Positions 27,032 through 37,218 of a DNA stretch of 64,000 bases are shown here, in pieces (position 1 is the stretch's first letter; each line of letters starts with the position of its first letter). Below the pieces are notes generated by a model. The model was not told the origin of the DNA and searched no databases. It was given only the letters and a program-made list of their open reading frames with translations. The position numbers and the translations under genes were made by a program. This stretch comes from Pirellulales bacterium (GTDB lineage Bacteria; Planctomycetota; Planctomycetia; Pirellulales; PALSA-1355): contig JALHMI010000003.1 in the NCBI GenBank assembly GCA_022844125.1, positions 124,001-188,000 on the forward strand. Reading direction: 5' to 3'.

Positions 27032-28489
27032 CTACAAGCGGCGATCGAAGTCGATCCGCGTCCACAGTCGCCACATGCAGGCGACGATGACTGCGCTGAC
27101 AATTGCCGGAATCAACATCAGCGGTATCGCCGCGCTCGGGTCGGAGTCGAACTGCAGTTGCCGGGCCGAACGACCCAGCAGCGCGCCAAAGGGAATACCC
27201 CCTAGAAGAAACATGCCGAACGCGATCACCAGTCCCAGCCATCGTTGTTCGATGACCACGATGATGGAGGTGAAAGCCAGGCACGCCAGCCATAATGCGC
27301 CGGAGAGGAACACAAGCAAGGACGTCGTCTCGGCCCAGTCTGGGATCAGTCCTTGCCACGCCGACGCAGAAAACCATTCGTCGCGCAGTTGGAAGGAAAG
27401 GGTAGCAATCGCCCCCGCTGTGAGAGCGGGCGGAATCAGGTCCGAGGCGAGGGAGGCCGCCCACTCGCGTTGCAGCACAGTGCGAGATATCGGACGAAGC
27501 GATTCGACATCCAGGCAAGTCAGCCGCTTGCGCCACACAAAAGCAATTTGAATGCAGACAACGAATAGCACAAAGGTTGGGTAAAGCCCAAGACGCAGCG
27601 GCGTCGGTGTTTGCCGGAAGAGCGGCGAGATGACCGGCAGGATCCAGGGGAAAATCGCGATTACAATCGATCCGGCGACGACAGCCATCACCGGGAGGGT
27701 TCGAGGATTACCCACTCTCCATCGCAAGACGCGATTCCAGAGCGACGACTTTGGCGACGGTCCCTTCCAATTCTCAAGGAAACTCTCAAGCGACCACTCG
27801 ACCCAATTCGAACTGCGCTCGAATGACGTCGTCGCCCGGCCGGCCACGTTTCCGAAAGTGGCCCTTGCGCCCGCCAGGCCTTGCAACGTCTGGCAGGCGC
27901 GCCAGGCGTACGCCGTCCCAATCAGCAGCAGGCCGTGAAGCAACTGCGAGTTGGTGAGCCAGCCGACCGGCATAAACAACAGCGGAAAAATCACCAGTGC
28001 CCCCAGTCCCAGCAGTTTATCCAGCGGGCTGGACTCCATCGCCTGTCCCAGGTGTCTTTGCGCCGTCAGGTTGACGCCGGCGCTGAACAGACAGCCAGTC
28101 ATTCCCACCGCGAGAAAAAGCCCGGGCAAAAGCGGCACTCCAGCGGTCCACGTGCAGATAAGCACGCCGGCAACGATGATTCCCAGCCAATTCAGGCCCA
28201 CCAGGAAATGAGCGCGATGAAAGCAGGGTGCTAAATGACTCGCCGGATTTCGAAATTGCCGTGCAAGAACTCCGCCTACTCCCATCGCCGAGGTCGCCGG
28301 ACCGAGCCCAACAAACCAGGGCAATTGTGATGGCGCCGGAATGTTGGCCTCGGCGGGCGCAAGGTCCAACAACGTCAGCACAGACAGCGTAACGAGGCCC
28401 TGGACAATCAGGCCAGCGAAAGCGAGCAACGCCAGAAATCCCTTATTCGTGAAGTAGGTCGCCAGCACCCAGAAGAGCTGTTGTCGCAT
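27032..28489 (-). CDS. ABC transporter permease-like membrane protein (shorter paralogue)
   Basis: A 485-residue polytopic membrane protein with roughly ten to twelve hydrophobic segments and no LRR insert. It is a paralogue of the upstream 716-residue protein. Shared landmarks are the start 'FWVLATYFTNK', 'AMGVGGVLARQF' after the first spans, 'VWRKRLTCLDVESLRPISR' in the middle, and the end 'CMWRLWTRIDFDRR'. The ATG at 28489 is chosen because it aligns with the paralogue; the TTG at 28498 is less likely. It is the last gene of the GntR-ABC operon and probably pairs with the ATPase at 30699-31583. The cargo is unknown. Confidence 0.7.
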   Translation of the reverse strand: MRQQLFWVLATYFTNKGFLALLAFAGLIVQGLVTLSVLTLLDLAPAEANIPAPSQLPWFVGLGPATSAMGVGGVLARQFRNPASHLAPCFHRAHFLVGLNWLGIIVAGVLICTWTAGVPLLPGLFLAVGMTGCLFSAGVNLTAQRHLGQAMESSPLDKLLGLGALVIFPLLFMPVGWLTNSQLLHGLLLIGTAYAWRACQTLQGLAGARATFGNVAGRATTSFERSSNWVEWSLESFLENWKGPSPKSSLWNRVLRWRVGNPRTLPVMAVVAGSIVIAIFPWILPVISPLFRQTPTPLRLGLYPTFVLFVVCIQIAFVWRKRLTCLDVESLRPISRTVLQREWAASLASDLIPPALTAGAIATLSFQLRDEWFSASAWQGLIPDWAETTSLLVFLSGALWLACLAFTSIIVVIEQRWLGLVIAFGMFLLGGIPFGALLGRSARQLQFDSDPSAAIPLMLIPAIVSAVIVACMWRLWTRIDFDRRL

Positions 28490-28555
28490 AACTTTCAAGC
28501 TCCGGCCACGTTCACCGACGAATCAAGTCACACACTCGCCCAAGATCAACGATTG

Positions 28556-30706
28556 CTAAGACTGACGATCAAAGTCCATCCTCGTCCATTGGTGCCACAT
28601 GCAGGCGAGCACCAGCAAGCTTAAAAGCGATGGCAGCCAGAGCAGCGGCAGCACGTCCCACGCTGTGAGATTTCGCGATGGACCGCCTGCGCGAAACGCC
28701 AAAAGCAGACCCAACCCCGCGCTGTTGACCAGAATGAACGGCACGGCGAGCATGAGGCGCACCCACTGCCGTTCGACGACGACTTGTACCGCGCAGGCCG
28801 CGGCGGTGACGGCCCACAGTGCGGGCGCCAAGATGATGAACGCCTCCAACAGGCTTTGCCAGCCGGGCAATGCCAACAGCCACGCGCCGAGACCAATCGC
28901 ATTCAGGTCCAATTGACTTACCACGGCGATGATGAGCCCGACAATCGCCGAAGGCGCAAGCAGGTCAAGCAGCAGGGCGATGGCCCAATCGCCTTGGACC
29001 ATGCTTCGCGAGAGCGGCCGCAGTGATTCCACGTCCAAACACGTTACGCGTTTGCGCCAAACCAAGGCAACCTGGCCACACACCATCAGCAGTAGAATCA
29101 AAGGTACAAACCAGAGGTTTACCTGTACGGCCATTCCAACATTGGGGCGAGCGCGGCCCAATGCGACGATTACAGCGAGACCTCCAAAAGAGAATACCAA
29201 CATGAACGGAAGCGCGAGCAGCGGCGCGTTGCCGGCCCGCCATCGCTCGAGACGTTTCGACAGCGGCCAGCTGACAGATACCCCGCACCAATCTTCGATC
29301 AGCCGTTCACGCCGCGCGAATGCGTGCATCCTGTCCGCCCTCAGGGGCACCGGTACGGTATTGCGGGGTTGTCTGGAGTCGAGCATGTTTCCGGCAGGCA
29401 ACTGCCGGAGAATCGTGATGCTATGCCAAACGGCCGCACCGGCGAACACGCCGGAGGCCGTTACGATTGCAAATCGCCATTGCTGGGCAAACTCGGTCGC
29501 ACCAGGTATCGCGCCGGAGAAGATCAACACAGGGGTACCCAGTGAGATGATCCAATCCCAAATCCCAGTACGAACAGCGGGGCCGAGTCGACGTTTGTTG
29601 AGATAGTCAACGCCAGCGGAGAAAAAGAACATGGCCGCGGCGCCGCACAGAATGACACTCTGCATCAATGGCTGCCGAGACATCCACATGCTGAATGCCA
29701 TTGCAGCAATGATCGCGCTCAGCCACCCCGCCGCCGTGATTGCGTGTGCGGACAGGAAACCCGGCGCCAGGCGACTGGTAGAACTACCAAATTGATTGGC
29801 GACGACGAGCCCCACTCCCATGGCGAGGACTCCGGGAAAGAATCCCGCGATCCACGGAAGTCGAGTTACAACCTCTGCCGGTTCAACGTTGATTGTGGGA
29901 AGCACCAGGCGAGCTCGGGCGAGCTGATCGAATTGGCTCGGAAGATCAGGTCCACCCACGTAGAATGTTTGCAGATTTGGAGCATTGGCAAGCTGCTTGA
30001 ATCCAGCATCGGTAATAGCTGGATTGAAATAATGGGATCGAATGCCGAAGATTTCGAGATGCGGAAGGTGTGTGAGTTCTCGCAGTACTGCATCGTCGAC
30101 GCCGGCCTGACTTGACATCACAAGAGTCGTCAAATTGGGAAGCGCCGACAATTTCTCAATTCCCCGCACCGGCTGATGTGCTTCTAGATCCAGCCGTTCA
30201 AGGCCTGGAAGTCTCGAAACAGGGGCAAGTTCGAGCGGACCGATGCCACCCAGACTTAGATACTGAATGCCTTGACGCCCGGCCAGTCGGCGTAGCGCAC
30301 GCTCTGGCTCCACTGGAATGTAGTCGATTCGCACAATCCTTAGATTGGGAAACTCGTCCAGCATTTGATAGAACGAATCTGGCGGAGTGGTGACTTCGTA
30401 GCGAACCCCGGCAGGCTTTCCGGCGACATCCTGCCGTTGCTTTTCCATGTCGCCCCACAGGCTTCCCAGGTTGATGTCATCCACCCGATCTTGAAGGTGC
30501 GCCCGTCGAACGGAATCGAGTGAATCGATGGAATAGACCATCAACTGGCCGCGCGGTATCGCCGGAATGTTTGATTCAAGGCGAACCCGTCGCGAAAGCA
30601 AGGCCACCGCGCCGATCACACTCCAAACACATACGATCGCCAGCGCGGCAAGAAACAGCTTGTTCGAAAAGTAAGTTCGCAACACCCACCAAATTTGCCT
30701 ACCCAT
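28556..30706 (-). CDS. ABC permease-like membrane protein with inserted leucine-rich-repeat domain
   Basis: A 716-residue membrane protein. One span at about 17-38 is followed by a soluble segment of about 245 residues. Within it, residues 119-252 form six LRR-like units ('FPNLRIVRID', 'GIQYLSL', 'LPGLERLDL', 'LPNLTTLVM', 'LPHLEIFGI', 'APNLQTFYV'). After this come about ten more spans, homologous to the shorter downstream paralogue ('AMGVGLVVANQF', 'VWRKRVTCLDVESLRPLSR', 'CMWHQWTRMDFDRQ'). The LRR domain is probably outside the cytoplasm and could sense a peptide or protein. The start overlaps the ATPase stop by 8 bases; GGAG lies 9 bases upstream. Function unknown. Confidence 0.75.
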   Translation of the reverse strand: MGRQIWWVLRTYFSNKLFLAALAIVCVWSVIGAVALLSRRVRLESNIPAIPRGQLMVYSIDSLDSVRRAHLQDRVDDINLGSLWGDMEKQRQDVAGKPAGVRYEVTTPPDSFYQMLDEFPNLRIVRIDYIPVEPERALRRLAGRQGIQYLSLGGIGPLELAPVSRLPGLERLDLEAHQPVRGIEKLSALPNLTTLVMSSQAGVDDAVLRELTHLPHLEIFGIRSHYFNPAITDAGFKQLANAPNLQTFYVGGPDLPSQFDQLARARLVLPTINVEPAEVVTRLPWIAGFFPGVLAMGVGLVVANQFGSSTSRLAPGFLSAHAITAAGWLSAIIAAMAFSMWMSRQPLMQSVILCGAAAMFFFSAGVDYLNKRRLGPAVRTGIWDWIISLGTPVLIFSGAIPGATEFAQQWRFAIVTASGVFAGAAVWHSITILRQLPAGNMLDSRQPRNTVPVPLRADRMHAFARRERLIEDWCGVSVSWPLSKRLERWRAGNAPLLALPFMLVFSFGGLAVIVALGRARPNVGMAVQVNLWFVPLILLLMVCGQVALVWRKRVTCLDVESLRPLSRSMVQGDWAIALLLDLLAPSAIVGLIIAVVSQLDLNAIGLGAWLLALPGWQSLLEAFIILAPALWAVTAAACAVQVVVERQWVRLMLAVPFILVNSAGLGLLLAFRAGGPSRNLTAWDVLPLLWLPSLLSLLVLACMWHQWTRMDFDRQS

Positions 30707-31583
30707 GGCCGTTGAGCTCCACGAAGATCTCTTCGAGATTCAGGTCTTCCACGCGGACTTCGGCCTGGTAGCGTTCGGCGAGCTCATCCAGTAGTTCCGG
30801 CGTCACGGTGCTGACCGTGGCCAAGGCGCTGCGGCCGTCGACTTTGGCGGTAAGCAGGCCTGGAATGTCGAGCTCACGGGGAAAGTCATCAATCGCTCGC
30901 ATCCGGAGCCGCTTGACGCGATCCTTCAGTTCATCGAGCTCCGAGAAGCTGGCGATTCGGCCGGCGTGGAGAATGGCGACATGTGTCGCGACTCGCTCCA
31001 GGTCGGAACTGATGTGCGTCGAGAACAGCACGGTTCGATTGCCATCGCGAGCGAGTTCCAGAATCGAACGCAGAAAATCGCGCCGAGCCACGGGATCCAA
31101 GCTCGCAACCGGTTCGTCGAGCACCATCAGATCCGGCCGATGCCCGAGGGCCAGAACGATCGCCAGCGTTTGCAACTGCCCGGTCGAGAGAGCCTGCACG
31201 CGGTCGCTGAGCGGCACACGCCAGCGTTCCACCAGCTCACTGACCCACCGCTCGTCCCAGTCGGGATAAAACGTCGAGGTGTACTGAATCAGGTGCCGGA
31301 CCTTCATCCAATCGAGCTGATGCACGACTTGCGGCACATAGCCCAGGCGTCTTTTCACCTCGGGCGACAGATTCCGCGAATCGTCCCCCAACAGCCGAGC
31401 CGAGCCGCCGTCGGGGCGAACCAGCCCCAGCAGGCACTTGATCAGGGTGCTTTTTCCCGAGCCATTCATGCCCATCAGGCCGACGACGGCGCCGCGCGGC
31501 ACGCGCAGGTCGACACCCTGCAGAACGGGCTTTCGATCGTAGGACTTAGTCAACCCCGCGATGTCGATGGCGATTTGTTCCAC
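30699..31583 (-). CDS. ABC transporter ATP-binding protein
   Basis: A 294-residue ABC ATPase of the CcmA/YtrB type. Walker A 'GMNGSGKST' is at 38-46, the signature is 'LSTGQ' at 132-136 (a common variant of LSGGQ), and Walker B 'LMVLDE' is at 152-157, followed by 'PVASLDP' and the switch His in 'LFSTHISSDLE'. The C-terminal 80 residues are a regulatory extension ending 'NLEEIFVELN'. The GTG at 31583 has AAGGAG 8 bases upstream and overlaps the GntR gene by 34 bases. It most likely energises the two permease-like proteins encoded downstream. Confidence 0.93.
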   Translation of the reverse strand: MEQIAIDIAGLTKSYDRKPVLQGVDLRVPRGAVVGLMGMNGSGKSTLIKCLLGLVRPDGGSARLLGDDSRNLSPEVKRRLGYVPQVVHQLDWMKVRHLIQYTSTFYPDWDERWVSELVERWRVPLSDRVQALSTGQLQTLAIVLALGHRPDLMVLDEPVASLDPVARRDFLRSILELARDGNRTVLFSTHISSDLERVATHVAILHAGRIASFSELDELKDRVKRLRMRAIDDFPRELDIPGLLTAKVDGRSALATVSTVTPELLDELAERYQAEVRVEDLNLEEIFVELNGHG

Positions 31584-31975
31584 GACTGGCGCTCCTTAAG
31601 GTGAGATCGGACGGAGGCGATGAGCTGCGGCTCGGTTAGCCCTAGCTGCATGGCTCTGGTAACCAGCGGCTCGATGAGCGGTGCGAGTTCTTCCTGGCGC
31701 TCGGCGACGGTGGGCAATGTTTCCGGCGGGCGAACCCGCATCCCGGTGCCGCGGACGCGCTCGAGAGCGCCGTCGGCCTCGAGCCGGGCGTAGGCCTTGG
31801 AGACCGTCATCATGTTCACTTCCAGATCGGTGGCCAACTGCCGGATGCTGGGCAGCAGGGCCCCCTGCGGCAGGCGACGACTGGCGATGAGGGCCCGCAC
31901 CTGGTCCATGATCTGGCGATAGATGGGGACGCCGCTGTTGGGCTGGATTTCAAATTCGAGCGAAGCGTCGGTCAC
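31550..31975 (-). CDS. GntR-family (YtrA-type) transcriptional regulator
   Basis: A 141-residue repressor with the short layout of the YtrA subfamily. A winged helix-turn-helix spans residues about 15-81 ('YRQIMDQVRALIASRRL', 'LPSIRQLATDLEVNMMTVSKAYARLE', 'GTGMRV'), followed by a helical dimer tail of about 60 residues with no ligand-binding domain. The GTG start at 31975 follows GGAGGT at 5 bases; the longer frame from 32200 is not homologous. YtrA regulators usually repress their own operon with an ABC transporter, and a nested inverted repeat covers this gene's promoter. Confidence 0.92.
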   Translation of the reverse strand: MTDASLEFEIQPNSGVPIYRQIMDQVRALIASRRLPQGALLPSIRQLATDLEVNMMTVSKAYARLEADGALERVRGTGMRVRPPETLPTVAERQEELAPLIEPLVTRAMQLGLTEPQLIASVRSHLKERQSWNKSPSTSRG

Positions 31976-31985
31976 GGCAAACCTC

Positions 31986-32021
31986 CAACTGCATTGGTGC
32001 ATTATTGTAGTAATGCAGTTG
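31986..32021. promoter_or_regulatory. nested inverted repeat, probable GntR/YtrA operator
   Basis: CAACTGCATT at 31986-31995 and AATGCAGTTG at 32012-32021 are perfect inverted copies. Inside them GCATTA / TAATGC (31999-32004 and 32011-32016) form a second perfect pair. The element covers the -10 box, most of the spacer and the start region of the GntR promoter, so binding would block transcription: the layout expected for autorepression. Confidence 0.65.
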
Positions 32022-32029
32022 CTTGTCAA
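32001..32029 (-). promoter_or_regulatory. promoter of the GntR-ABC operon
   Basis: On the minus strand a consensus TTGACA (32029-32024), a 17-base spacer and AATAAT (32006-32001). Transcription would start near 31994, just before the GGAGGT ribosome-binding site. Confidence 0.7.
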
Positions 32030-32357
32030 GCGGAGCGAACAGCTGGATTCTGCGGGCGCGCTGCAAGTCGCAGAGAACGGCGACGGGCACGCGGCGGCGC
32101 ATAACCGGCACAATGCGCACGCCCCGACGCGCCCGCTGAGATTCCCGGCGTTCTGGGGTCGCCTGGGAGCGAACTTCCGGCCCACCTCAGCCGTCAACAA
32201 TCGGTGGGTTCGGACTGATCGCTAAGTCGTGACCGTGCATCACCTGCCGCACATTCGTCGCACGGCGTCGCTTACGGTAGTTCTTGCAGAGTCGCTGCCG
32301 GGAGCGACGATAGTTGCTTTGTTCAACTTCGGTACATCCCTAGAAGCGCGGAATCGC

Positions 32358-33686: not shown

Positions 33687-36600
33687 TTAGCGGCCCATGC
33701 CCACGAAGAAGCTGATATTCTGGATCAAGTCGCCATCGGCACGCTGGATCGGGCCGGCGATATCGATCGCGATCGGGGCGGCGCTGATGGCGGGGATGGT
33801 CACGCGCAGGCCGGCACCCGGCGAGATACGGTAGTCGCTCCAATTGATCGAGATATTCTCTTCAACCGTACCAAAGTCGACGAAGACCACGCCTTTCAGA
33901 GCGTCGTCGGCGGTGATTGGGAACATATACTCCAGCGAGTTAATCCACTGGAAGTTACCACCGACGATGGAAAAGTTGGTCGGATCCAGGTCGCTCGCCT
34001 CTTGCGGCGATGCTCCGCGGAAAAAGAAACCGCGGAGGGTCGAGAAACCACCGGCAAAGAACCGCTCGTAGACCGGCGTGTTGTCGCCGCTAAATCCGAG
34101 TTGGTTGTAGTAGCTGAATGTATGCCGGCCCGTTCCGTCGGGTCGTTCACGCAGCAACCAATGCTTCTGCGCGTTCAGGGTGAACTGCGGATAGAAGAAA
34201 GTGCCCATGAAGTACTCGAACGTGCCGACCGCGTAGTGACCCTCCGTCGGCAGGAACGTGCTGTCGCGCGTATCGTGAGCCAGCGAACTGCGGACACTGT
34301 ACAGTTGCGTGTGACCTGTCGCATCTCGAATTGAGGGAACTTCCGCGGTTTCGTCGTTACTAGGATCAATCAACACGTCTTCTGCTCGCAAACCGATGTT
34401 GCCCGAGAAGTCCGGCGTGAACTGATAACCGAGCGTCACGCGACCGCCGATACGCTGTTCCATCCAGTCCTGATAGAAGCGATTGAAGTAGTAGCCCGAC
34501 AGCCCGAAGCTGACCGGGGTGTCGAACAGGAATGGCTCTGAAAAGTTGAACAGGTAGCGTTGGACCTGCGTACCGGGTGCTGCTTCCAAACGGAATTTCT
34601 GACCGGCGCCTCGCCAGGCTCGACCCGATCGAATGTCTTCCCAACTGGTGGGAAAGCGGCGCCAGTCGAAGTTCTGTTCGTCGAGCACGATCGAGCCGAC
34701 CACGCCGGCATTTGAGTTCACGCCGGCTCCAAACATGAACCGGCCGGTTTGCGCTTCACTGGCGACAATGTCGATGGGCAGCGCCGGCTGTTGCGGCGGC
34801 AGCGACTCGGCTCCCAGGAAACTGCCCGAGGGGGGCGCAACCAGCGGCGGACCGCCAAAGTCGCGCGGCTCGGAAAAATTCTCACGCGGATCGGGAAGCT
34901 GTTCGGCGTACTGAGCCGGCGTCACGGCCGCGCCAGTCGGCGGCGTGCCGACAGTCGCTCCGGTGTAGCCTGGCGTGCCGTACGCTCTGTAAACCGGCTG
35001 GGCGGCCGCAGGCTGCGCGTTGGGCGCCCCAGAGGGCGATCCGTAAGCCGAAGCGGCCGGAGGTTGCTGATACGGCAGGGCGGCAGGCGCGCCCTGGTAC
35101 GGCGATGCGGCAGGCGCAGGTTGATACGGCGAAGTCGCTGCCGGCTGCGGGGCGTACGGCGAAGGAGGCTGTACGTAGGGCTGCGAATTCGGCGGAAGCG
35201 GATTCACCGCCGTTCCACCATAGCCGCCGTAACCGTCCGGGCTTTGACCGCGCACCGCTTGGGGGCGTGTAACGGGCTGACGCAACGGGGCGCTACCAGT
35301 CGGTGCGGGTTGGTGCTGGGGGTATTGCTGCTGCGGTGTCGATTGCGGACGGTAGGTCTGCTGGGGCGTATGGACGGGTGCGCCCAGCACGAATCGCGGA
35401 TTGCCATTCAAGCCACCGCTTCGAGGCTGCTGGGGCGTACGGACTGCGCCATCAGGGCTTTGGCCGCGCACTGCAGGACGGCTGGCCGTGCGTCCGGTGC
35501 CGCGAGTTCCTTTGTCGCCGCCCGCGATATTTTCCATTCCCTCGGGCGGAGAGAACGTCAGCCGCGGAACGTCGCCCTTGGAGGGATCAACGTTGAAGAT
35601 GCCCGCGGCCTGCACGCGGCGTTCGCTGTTGCGGAACTTGCGGATGTCGGCGATGTCGCCCGGTCGGAAGTCGAGGCGATTGAGGATCGTGGACTGCTTG
35701 GTGTGGGGATTGTCACCCTTGATCGTGACGCGAATGTCGCCCACCCGGCACTGCTGCCCTTCCTGCATGTTGTAAATAATATCGACGACGCCCGGCTCGA
35801 GATCGAAACGCAGTTCGCCGACGGCGTCAGCGAACACGTAACCGTTTGAACCGTAAAGATCCTTGATCGTGCCGATATCCTTGTTCAGCACGGACTGGTC
35901 AAACGGATCGCCCGAGGCCAGTCTGAGCGTCGGCATCAGGGCCTCGCTCGGGAAGATCCGATTGCCCATAAACGAGATATTGCGAACGTTATAGCGCGGA
36001 CCTTCGTAGATGTGGAAGGTGACGTCGAGCTTGTTTTCGTCGCGATTGTACTGGAAGTTGCGCCCGACCGTGGCCTTGAAGAAACCCAGGCTGCGGTAGT
36101 ACTCGAGCAACCGTTCGCGGTCTTCATCGAGTGTCTGCTGATCGACTTCGCCCTTGAGCACCCACAGGATGGGCTGCTTCGACTGGATCACTTTCTTCAG
36201 GCGGCCGTCGGGAGCAATCTCCTTGCTGTTCCCCTCGAAGGTGATTTTGCGAAACTTGAGCTTCTTGCCTTCGTTGATCAGGAACACGGCGCCACGGTCG
36301 CCGGGCTTGTCACCTTCGGCGATCTCGACGTTCACGCCGCTGAAGCCTTTGCCTTCGTAGTAGGCTTCGATCTTCCGCGCGGCCTCGCGCACGGCGTAAG
36401 GATCGAACGCGTCGTTCTTCTTCAGGCCGGTTTCTTTGTTCAAGGCCCGCTCGCTCACCGAGTTGCCGAAATAGCGGACGTACTCCAGCACGGGACGTTC
36501 GATGACCTCGAGCGTGATCACGACGCCGCCGGGTACGAACTCCTTGCGGGGCACGACATGCACGAACCAGCTTCGCGAAGTGAGTTTCTTGATGTCTTTC

Positions 36601-36881
36601 TCGAAAGCGGCCTGGTCGAACGCATGACCGATGCGGATCGTCATCGCGTTCAGCACCTTCTCGCGCGAGTGCGTGCGATTGCCTTGGATTTGAATGTCGA
36701 CGACTTGTACGGCGGCCGACATTTGTTCTTCGGCGATGGGCGGAAGCGGCGTCGGAGCCGGCCCAGAGGGGCCGGCAGGCGGCTGAGCGAAGGCGATCGT
36801 CACCCCAACGACCGCGCACGCCAACAGCGCGGCCGACGCTTGGCGCAATAATCCCCAGACCTCGCGGCCGACAGGAGCCAT
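33687..36881 (-). CDS. bamA: outer-membrane assembly protein BamA (Omp85 family)
   Basis: A 1064-residue protein that inserts beta-barrel proteins into the outer membrane. After a signal peptide (about 1-33), POTRA domains occupy about 50-440, with typical starts such as 'VVDIQIQGNRTHSREKVL' and 'VRNISFMGNRIFPSEAL'. Residues about 450-690 are a Pro/Gln/Ala/Gly-rich low-complexity stretch that ordinary BamA proteins lack. The barrel is at about 700-1064 and includes 'GFSTLRGFFFRGASP', a form of the conserved loop-6 (V/I)RG(F/Y) motif, and ends in strands to 'ISFFVGMGR'. The ATG at 36881 places the signal peptide correctly. Its presence shows a diderm envelope. Confidence 0.93.
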   Translation of the reverse strand: MAPVGREVWGLLRQASAALLACAVVGVTIAFAQPPAGPSGPAPTPLPPIAEEQMSAAVQVVDIQIQGNRTHSREKVLNAMTIRIGHAFDQAAFEKDIKKLTSRSWFVHVVPRKEFVPGGVVITLEVIERPVLEYVRYFGNSVSERALNKETGLKKNDAFDPYAVREAARKIEAYYEGKGFSGVNVEIAEGDKPGDRGAVFLINEGKKLKFRKITFEGNSKEIAPDGRLKKVIQSKQPILWVLKGEVDQQTLDEDRERLLEYYRSLGFFKATVGRNFQYNRDENKLDVTFHIYEGPRYNVRNISFMGNRIFPSEALMPTLRLASGDPFDQSVLNKDIGTIKDLYGSNGYVFADAVGELRFDLEPGVVDIIYNMQEGQQCRVGDIRVTIKGDNPHTKQSTILNRLDFRPGDIADIRKFRNSERRVQAAGIFNVDPSKGDVPRLTFSPPEGMENIAGGDKGTRGTGRTASRPAVRGQSPDGAVRTPQQPRSGGLNGNPRFVLGAPVHTPQQTYRPQSTPQQQYPQHQPAPTGSAPLRQPVTRPQAVRGQSPDGYGGYGGTAVNPLPPNSQPYVQPPSPYAPQPAATSPYQPAPAASPYQGAPAALPYQQPPAASAYGSPSGAPNAQPAAAQPVYRAYGTPGYTGATVGTPPTGAAVTPAQYAEQLPDPRENFSEPRDFGGPPLVAPPSGSFLGAESLPPQQPALPIDIVASEAQTGRFMFGAGVNSNAGVVGSIVLDEQNFDWRRFPTSWEDIRSGRAWRGAGQKFRLEAAPGTQVQRYLFNFSEPFLFDTPVSFGLSGYYFNRFYQDWMEQRIGGRVTLGYQFTPDFSGNIGLRAEDVLIDPSNDETAEVPSIRDATGHTQLYSVRSSLAHDTRDSTFLPTEGHYAVGTFEYFMGTFFYPQFTLNAQKHWLLRERPDGTGRHTFSYYNQLGFSGDNTPVYERFFAGGFSTLRGFFFRGASPQEASDLDPTNFSIVGGNFQWINSLEYMFPITADDALKGVVFVDFGTVEENISINWSDYRISPGAGLRVTIPAISAAPIAIDIAGPIQRADGDLIQNISFFVGMGR

Positions 36882-37218
36882 GGACGCTCGCTTGTGAATC
36901 ACGTTGACGAAACTTGGAGATGGGTACGGCAAACTGGTCGCAAGTCCGAGCATCCGCCCTCACTCGAGGTCGAGACGCCAAAGGCTCGCGGTGACTGGCC
37001 GTTTTCTGGTCGATCCGAAGCAAGCAGATGTGATCGCGCTTGGGCTCGGATCGACTAAGCGGCGTAGAAATACTGCAAGCCGCGAAACGCGACAAGACGA
37101 AATTCGCCCACGGGAGACGTTTCTGTGGTCAATTCACGCCGGAACGAACGCTGGCAGCCCGTACTGCTAGCTGCACGTCCCGGCGAAATACGCGAATCGA
37201 ATCGCCACGACCAACGGG
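36882..37218. other. intergenic region, bamA / dnaB
   Basis: These 337 bases lie between the bamA start and the dnaB stop (both minus strand). They must hold the end of the dnaB transcript and the bamA control region, but I could find no good promoter or terminator. Short open frames here look random. Confidence 0.5.

Follow-up and report, generated by a model that had tools for sequence, protein, structure and literature searches.

A YtrA-type GntR repressor is encoded together with an ATP-binding cassette (ABC) transporter in the ytrGABCDEF operon of Bacillus subtilis, and the same pairing occurs in the operon described here, which lies in a 64,000-nucleotide stretch of a Pirellulales genome (contig JALHMI010000003.1; the whole stretch is referred to as the window). 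As far as the available portions of the literature describe it, the B. subtilis operon encodes a pair of ATPases, a pair of separate membrane proteins and a substrate-binding protein, whereas the operon of the window has one ATPase gene and a 12-span permease chain (permease 1) that carries a leucine-rich repeat (LRR) head; it contains no gene beyond those for GntR, the ATPase and two permeases. According to extracts of one study, lipid II cycle inhibitors induce ytr; a consistent role in antibiotic survival could not be confirmed, and an effect on cell-wall synthesis was reported instead (PMC12772383). By analogy only, the present operon might respond to envelope stress.

Three further transporters resemble parts of the locus. 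The mycobacterial efflux pump of entries 8k1m-8k1p, whose permease we take to be Rv1217c, has a permease chain of 509-530 residues that matches ours in fold from end to end, and the profile of our ATPase matches that of the pump, Rv1218c, at 6.2e-42; at its length the solved mycobacterial permease leaves no room for a head of 245 residues, and the Rv1218c pump has a regulator of another kind. In Staphylococcus, the PmtABCD-PmtR system is matched by the GntR protein (PmtR, 5.6e-16) and by the ATPase (PmtA, 3.5e-48, its best NCBIfam match), both below cut-off, and PmtCD matches the C-terminal half of permease 2 (Z 11.4), but the Pmt chain has 247-249 residues without an LRR, and Pmt permeases are half-size and work in pairs. 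ABCA1 and ABCA7 match the same half of permease 2 (Z 11.5-12.4), and ABCA1 (4.8e-45), like Rv1218c, is one of the top matches to our ATPase profile; these are eukaryotic single chains with fused ATPases, unlike the separate ATPase gene here, and the first outer domain of ABCA transporters, which follows span 1, is not an LRR. Plant LRR kinases, internalins and Toll-like receptors share the fold of the head, and none of those listed is joined to an ABC permease; it is with this fold that plant and animal immune receptors grip their ligands. The component parts are of known kinds, and their union is not described in the portions of the open-licence literature that were searched, in keeping with a first-pass annotation of the locus which knew of no system with this layout.

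On balance, we favor reading the operon as a type V ABC transporter that is self-repressed through a YtrA-type autorepressor and bears an LRR head, for binding or docking, in the periplasm, with permease 2 as a head-less duplicate of permease 1. A GntR dimer on the promoter palindrome would block transcription until a signal releases it, and a dimer of the ATPase would pair with one 12-span permease chain. The LRR solenoid of permease 1, in the loop joining spans 1 and 2, would lie in the periplasm at the place where ABCA transporters have their first outer domain, and there it might bind a peptide, a lipid-linked or other envelope ligand, or a partner protein beside the translocation path, and this binding might select the substrate or gate the ATPase. 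Permease 2 would use the same ATPase without a head, giving two pumps from one operon, which could perform the same export or flipping reaction either coupled to a periplasmic cue (headed) or running freely (head-less). In such an arrangement, one bacterial membrane protein would combine an ABC transporter with a recognition fold of the receptor type, a union apparently made on more than one occasion at this loop, and natural headed and head-less pairs, even within this operon, make the role of the head directly testable.

Table 1. Genes, protein segments and regulatory elements of the operon, in window positions
Feature	Position	Strand	Description
GntR gene	31550-31975	-	141 aa; Pfam GntR 2.7e-16; first gene
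ABC ATPase gene	30699-31583	-	294 aa; ABC_tran 1.4e-25
Permease 1	28556-30706	-	716 aa; LRR head in the loop joining spans 1 and 2; twelve spans predicted
Permease 2	27032-28489	-	ATG start; twelve long helices in model; without LRR head
Insert of permease 1	29861-30595	-	Residues 38-282; LRR core 119-252 = 29951-30352; probably outward-facing
Conserved loop, span 2-3	29744-29788	-	Residues 307-321 (P315, H321); presumed coupling helix 1, role putative
Conserved loop, span 8-9	29006-29056	-	Residues 551-567 (WRKR..ESLRPLSR); presumed coupling helix 2, role putative
Sigma-70-like promoter	32001-32029	-	TTGACA-17-AATAAT, 11/12
Predicted GntR operator	31997-32018	.	CTGCATTACTACAATAATGCAC; 22 bases; over the -10 box

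The first-pass annotation had listed a YtrA-type GntR, an ABC ATPase and two permeases, and its coordinates and spacings are correct: the GntR and ATPase genes overlap by 34 bases, the ATPase and permease 1 genes by 8 bases, and a 66-base gap precedes permease 2 when the ATG at 28489 is taken as its start (the mechanical call begins at TTG 28498 and gives 488 aa).

The LRR head and its history

Permease 1 carries about 245 residues after span 1 that permease 2 does not have, as had been noticed at first pass. Its hydropathy profile contains twelve hydrophobic spans, with span 1 at residues 19-37 and the next at 285-303, and the insert probably lies outside the cytoplasm, in the periplasm, given a positively charged N-terminus (R3, R10, K16) and an even number of spans. 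Permease 1 by itself stays below the cut-off of the Pfam LRR models (LRR_4, LRR_14), at 19.3 bits for the protein and 25.6 bits for the insert alone, against a cut-off of 27. A profile of 46 same-site inserts reaches LRR proteins in the PDB with a best E of 1e-44, and at E 0.01 LRR_14 matches 29 and LRR_4 matches 22 of the 46 inserts. The AlphaFold2 model of permease 1 has strands at residues 124-128, 149-155, 171-176, 194-199, 219-222 and 247-250, which agree with the six LRR-like units first read from the sequence, and compares with solved LRR proteins at Z up to 14.4 over 191 residues (VIA). Profiles and model both describe tandem LxxLxxLxL units in a parallel-strand solenoid, and an LRR fold is thus predicted for residues 119-252, the segment on which the earlier proposal of a sensor depended.

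An LRR sensor is possible; substrate binding, docking and gating fit the head equally well. One somewhat unlikely reading, the best placed of those that compete with ours, is that the head is a docking or anchoring module, which attaches to peptidoglycan, a partner in the outer membrane or a shuttle in the periplasm, and senses no ligand. LRRs are general protein-binding scaffolds, periplasmic domains of other ABC exporters serve handover, and the head is conserved to about the same degree as the membrane part, as would suit a stable partner: of 30 pairs with membrane identity above 35%, 11 have the lower conservation in the head, and of all 990 pairs, 258. Against docking, inspection of the gene chains by eye, with no systematic test made, noticed no recurring fourth gene.

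The nearest relatives, that is, the best 80 of 181 found by a GntR-alignment scan of genome contigs, retain the GntR-ATPase-permease order in 74 loci; of the remaining six, five are cut off by a contig end, and L120, labelled as an Acidobacteria metagenome-assembled genome, is a true exception, with no adjoining ATPase. For the separation of ATPase and permeases in relatives, named at first pass as a refuting outcome, the 80 loci offer this one true exception beside the five cut ones. At 45 of the 74 loci, the permease carries 218-305 inserted residues at this site, three of these loci (L062, L067 and L118) being in broken or odd frames or on cut contigs. One headed locus, L111, belongs to a cultivable planctomycete, Blastopirellula marina DSM 3645. 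In L110 (7305-9548), one open reading frame (ORF) of 288 aa encodes span 1 and the head and the next, of 454 aa, the remainder of the permease, by a natural split or a frame break. The permease of L070 is 80-83% identical to those of L071 and L078 in the membrane part and 57-58% in the head, from possible head exchange or fast change.

In a tree of 78 permeases, from which the columns of the insert and eight cut or split ORFs had been left out, permease 1 and permease 2 are sisters (100/99) within a five-row set whose other rows are headed (100/97). Because the sisters are nested among headed rows, permease 2, a local duplicate, most simply lost its head after the duplication. Headed and short states change 6 times on the tree, at least 5 of the changes being forced by supported branches. 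The headed L065 and L069 are nested among short rows (100/99), and a single clade of headed forms is rejected by a 35-row approximately unbiased (AU) test, with a p-AU of 2e-8 that is too favorable, the rows having been chosen after the tree was seen. Against a profile of main-lineage heads, the inserts of L065, L069, L062 and L067 (the last two grouped with the first two by eye, not by tree) score 49-68 bits (best domain), compared with 69-93 for ordinary planctomycete LRR proteins (the 12 best of 161 generic ORFs, taken from permease 1 matches and so biased towards similarity) and 80-206 for 36 of 42 held-out main-lineage heads, five of which score below 70. Since these four inserts score no better than ordinary LRR proteins, the comparison favors independent capture of the head of the L065/L069 lineage at the same loop. 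A more general reading, which we hold to be less likely than not, is that planctomycetes insert LRR receptor heads time and again into one exposed loop of the type V permease; this would give receptor-gated pumps in which a ligand bound to the periplasmic head controls transport driven by ATP, the heads being gained, lost and perhaps exchanged between lineages.

The two permeases

The paralogy of the two membrane proteins, suggested at first pass from common landmarks, is borne out by 146 identical residues in 457 aligned columns (32%, E 2e-57), with the N-termini matching separately. AlphaFold2 gives each of them twelve long helices, at a predicted local distance difference test (pLDDT) of 80.4 and a predicted template modeling score (pTM) of 0.76 for permease 1, and at 80.3 and 0.82 for permease 2, for which a hydropathy scan alone resolves fewer than twelve spans; the alignment (A5) from which permease 2 was modeled includes the pieces L118:8115-9488 and L110:8184-9545. 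The four best Foldseek matches of the permease 2 model are four entries of the mycobacterial efflux pump. In VIA, permease 2 aligns end to end with 8k1o over 411 of 488 residues (Z 12.6, root-mean-square deviation (rmsd) 5.8), its top row being NosFY (Z 13.3, covering 220 residues in the C-terminal half), and permease 1 aligns with 8k1p over 425 residues (1-713; Z 13.9, rmsd 5.2), so that the structural similarity of the two membrane proteins is present and directed to the same mycobacterial permease. For these predicted models, a type V fold is indicated by Z of 9.6-13.9 with NosY, PmtCD, ABCA, ABCG and the mycobacterial pump versus 7.8-8.7 for MATE rows, in lists where the absence of a row does not rule out a family.

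P315 (77/78), H321 (75), P564 (75), R567 (67), R553 (66) and L562 (66), which are among the most conserved residues of the 78 permeases, lie in the loops between spans 2 and 3 and between spans 8 and 9. The latter loop is the landmark common to both proteins in the first-pass annotation, and both permeases retain both of these cytoplasmic loops. Each permease would then be a complete 12-span type V translocator made of two six-span halves with one coupling loop each. As both presumed coupling loops are kept and the fold is complete, a single chain should engage both ATPases, which makes a permease heterodimer unnecessary.

The first-pass annotation had instead proposed that the two permeases are halves of one heterodimeric exporter, to which permease 1 brings the sensor. 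Both permease genes do sit in one operon with one ATPase gene, and a headed and head-less pair also occurs in another lineage (L091), but we consider a heterodimer improbable: twelve long helices are modeled for each chain, which aligns end to end with a whole permease, both conserved loops are kept in both, permease 2 is a private duplicate, and relatives have a single permease gene in 7 of 7 loci of a first set and in 70 of the 74 wider loci, in five of which (L062, L066, L107, L121 and L127) the contig ends inside the permease. The four loci with more than one permease gene are L060 and L087 (two headed each), L091 (headed and short) and L093 (three short). The seven first relatives came from a search of the class with permease 1, after removal of LRR-only matches, and a search of the order with permease 2; they were chosen by eye on open frame and coverage and checked by their neighbors. 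All have GntR, ATPase and headed permease in order with no second permease seen, although in G010 the contig ends directly after the permease and a second one is possible. We give little credence to the complex being a regulator of envelope synthesis in place of a transporter, a role that has been considered for B. subtilis Ytr, its head reading the state of the envelope and its ATP cycle driving a partner enzyme: published extracts do link Ytr expression to cell-wall synthesis and the lipid II cycle (PMC12772383) and to wall thickness (PMC8060467), but the present permease resembles a drug pump solved with its substrate (8k1n), and the make-up of B. subtilis Ytr, as given in such extracts, differs (two ATPases, two membrane proteins and a binding protein).

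Several observations weigh against a headed type V transporter, the reading that we favor. The short permease is the only form at 28 of the 74 loci, including all five Omnitrophota loci, so the head is not needed for basic function, and the conservation of the head gives no sign of ligand-driven diversification. The Foldseek values for the mycobacterial pump are modest (E 1.7e-3 to 2.8e-2 for permease 2 and 1.1e-2 for permease 1), and helical bundles with Z below about 13 in VIA may share just their overall arrangement. None of 39 scanned permeases matches the Pfam ABC-permease (ABC2_membrane) families at E 0.1, the family being very divergent.

The GntR regulator and its predicted operator

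The winged-helix domain of the GntR protein scores 59.4 bits against a Pfam cut-off of 27 and ends at residue 81, and the protein is small, with the short C-terminal domain (about 50 residues) of the YtrA subfamily. The best PDB match of its profile is 6sbs (121 aa; 8.6e-20; residues 9-130 to 6-119), which we take to be Sulfolobus YtrA. The available portions of a study of Sulfolobus YtrA describe a protein of 121 aa with a very restricted regulon, and a subfamily whose members head membrane-protein or ABC operons and bind a long palindrome with half-sites far apart (PMC6746942). Here too, the GntR gene comes first in an ABC operon and is preceded by a long palindrome with distant half-sites, GTGTA-12-TACAC, compared with AGTGTA-13 bp-TACACT in B. 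subtilis according to extracts of PMC8060467. The Pfam match, the match to 6sbs and the likeness to the B. subtilis YtrA site all uphold the YtrA-type identity assigned at first pass.

A promoter scan of 31900-32300 found the single sigma-70-like promoter of Table 1 (shuffles: mean 0.0, standard deviation 0.2), and an outer 10-base inverted repeat surrounds the operator at about 31986-32021. The pattern GTGYATTA-N6-TAATRCAC, allowing up to 3 mismatches in 16 positions, precedes the GntR gene in 80 of 81 regions (the window and the 80 loci, whose related genomes are not independent) versus 0.1 per Markov-shuffled set. It had been derived from 40 of the 81 regions before all were scored, and is present in 40 of the 41 regions outside that derivation, the miss being L128. 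A TTGAC-like hexamer stands 10-21 bases upstream of the site in 71 of the 81 regions, with seven variants allowed and without a control. Because the palindrome is conserved upstream of GntR genes and covers the promoter here, repression of the operon by its own GntR protein is very probable.

In its own genome, the exact core TGYATTAN6TAATRCA has one site, that of this operon. With at most 1 mismatch there are two sites, each directly before a GntR gene of this family, and with at most 2 mismatches there are 10, versus 4 in a reversed control. The second of the two sites, with one mismatch, lies directly before the likely GntR start of L140 (G000:C14:201842-204535), another GntR-ATPase-short permease operon, whose permease has 460 aa. 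Judged by these sites, the regulon is probably these two operons alone. The analysis provides a precise predicted operator for a planctomycete YtrA-type system, for which the portions of the open-licence literature searched yielded no such work. A further GntR-ATPase operon of the same genome, L141 (G000:C10:84794-89127), encodes a 982-aa, 13-span permease with weak ABC2_membrane_3/4 matches and has its own upstream palindrome, TGTACTATCGACATAGTACA.

ATPase, wider distribution and neighboring genes

The ATPase has the Walker A/B motifs (GMNGSGKST, LDEP), and its signature reads LSTGQ, not LSGGQ. Its PADLOC matches were set aside as generic ATPase matches. The ATPase ORFs of L062, L100 and L125 are 240-242 aa long, apparently without the C-terminal part; L098 has two tandem GntR-ATPase pairs in one locus, and a 143-aa protein with two predicted spans is encoded between GntR and ATPase in L070, L071 and L078.

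Beyond the nearest loci, profile A7 detects the permease in at least 71 of 397 genomes of a class sample (own genome included), with at least 79 matches, comprising at least 45 headed, at least 26 short and 8 unclear; headed and short were called by match start and open frame, not by an LRR test, with a maximum of four candidates per genome. In a phylum sample, the permease is found in 12 of 392 genomes, one of them outside the class and with the short form. BLAST with permease 2, an insensitive search, gave matches in 4 of 196 genomes across the order (own included); a family search with permease 2 matched 1 of 4 genomes, the own one. A search with the whole of permease 1 matched 171 of 297 genomes (own included) and is misleading, most of the listed matches covering the LRR part alone; two of nine fetched loci, L051 and L055, were other proteins.

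Elsewhere in the window, positions 33687-36953 of the minus strand encode a 1088-aa protein that by eye is a BamA/Omp85-like outer-membrane assembly protein, its C-terminal part being preceded by a long stretch rich in Pro, Gln and Ala.

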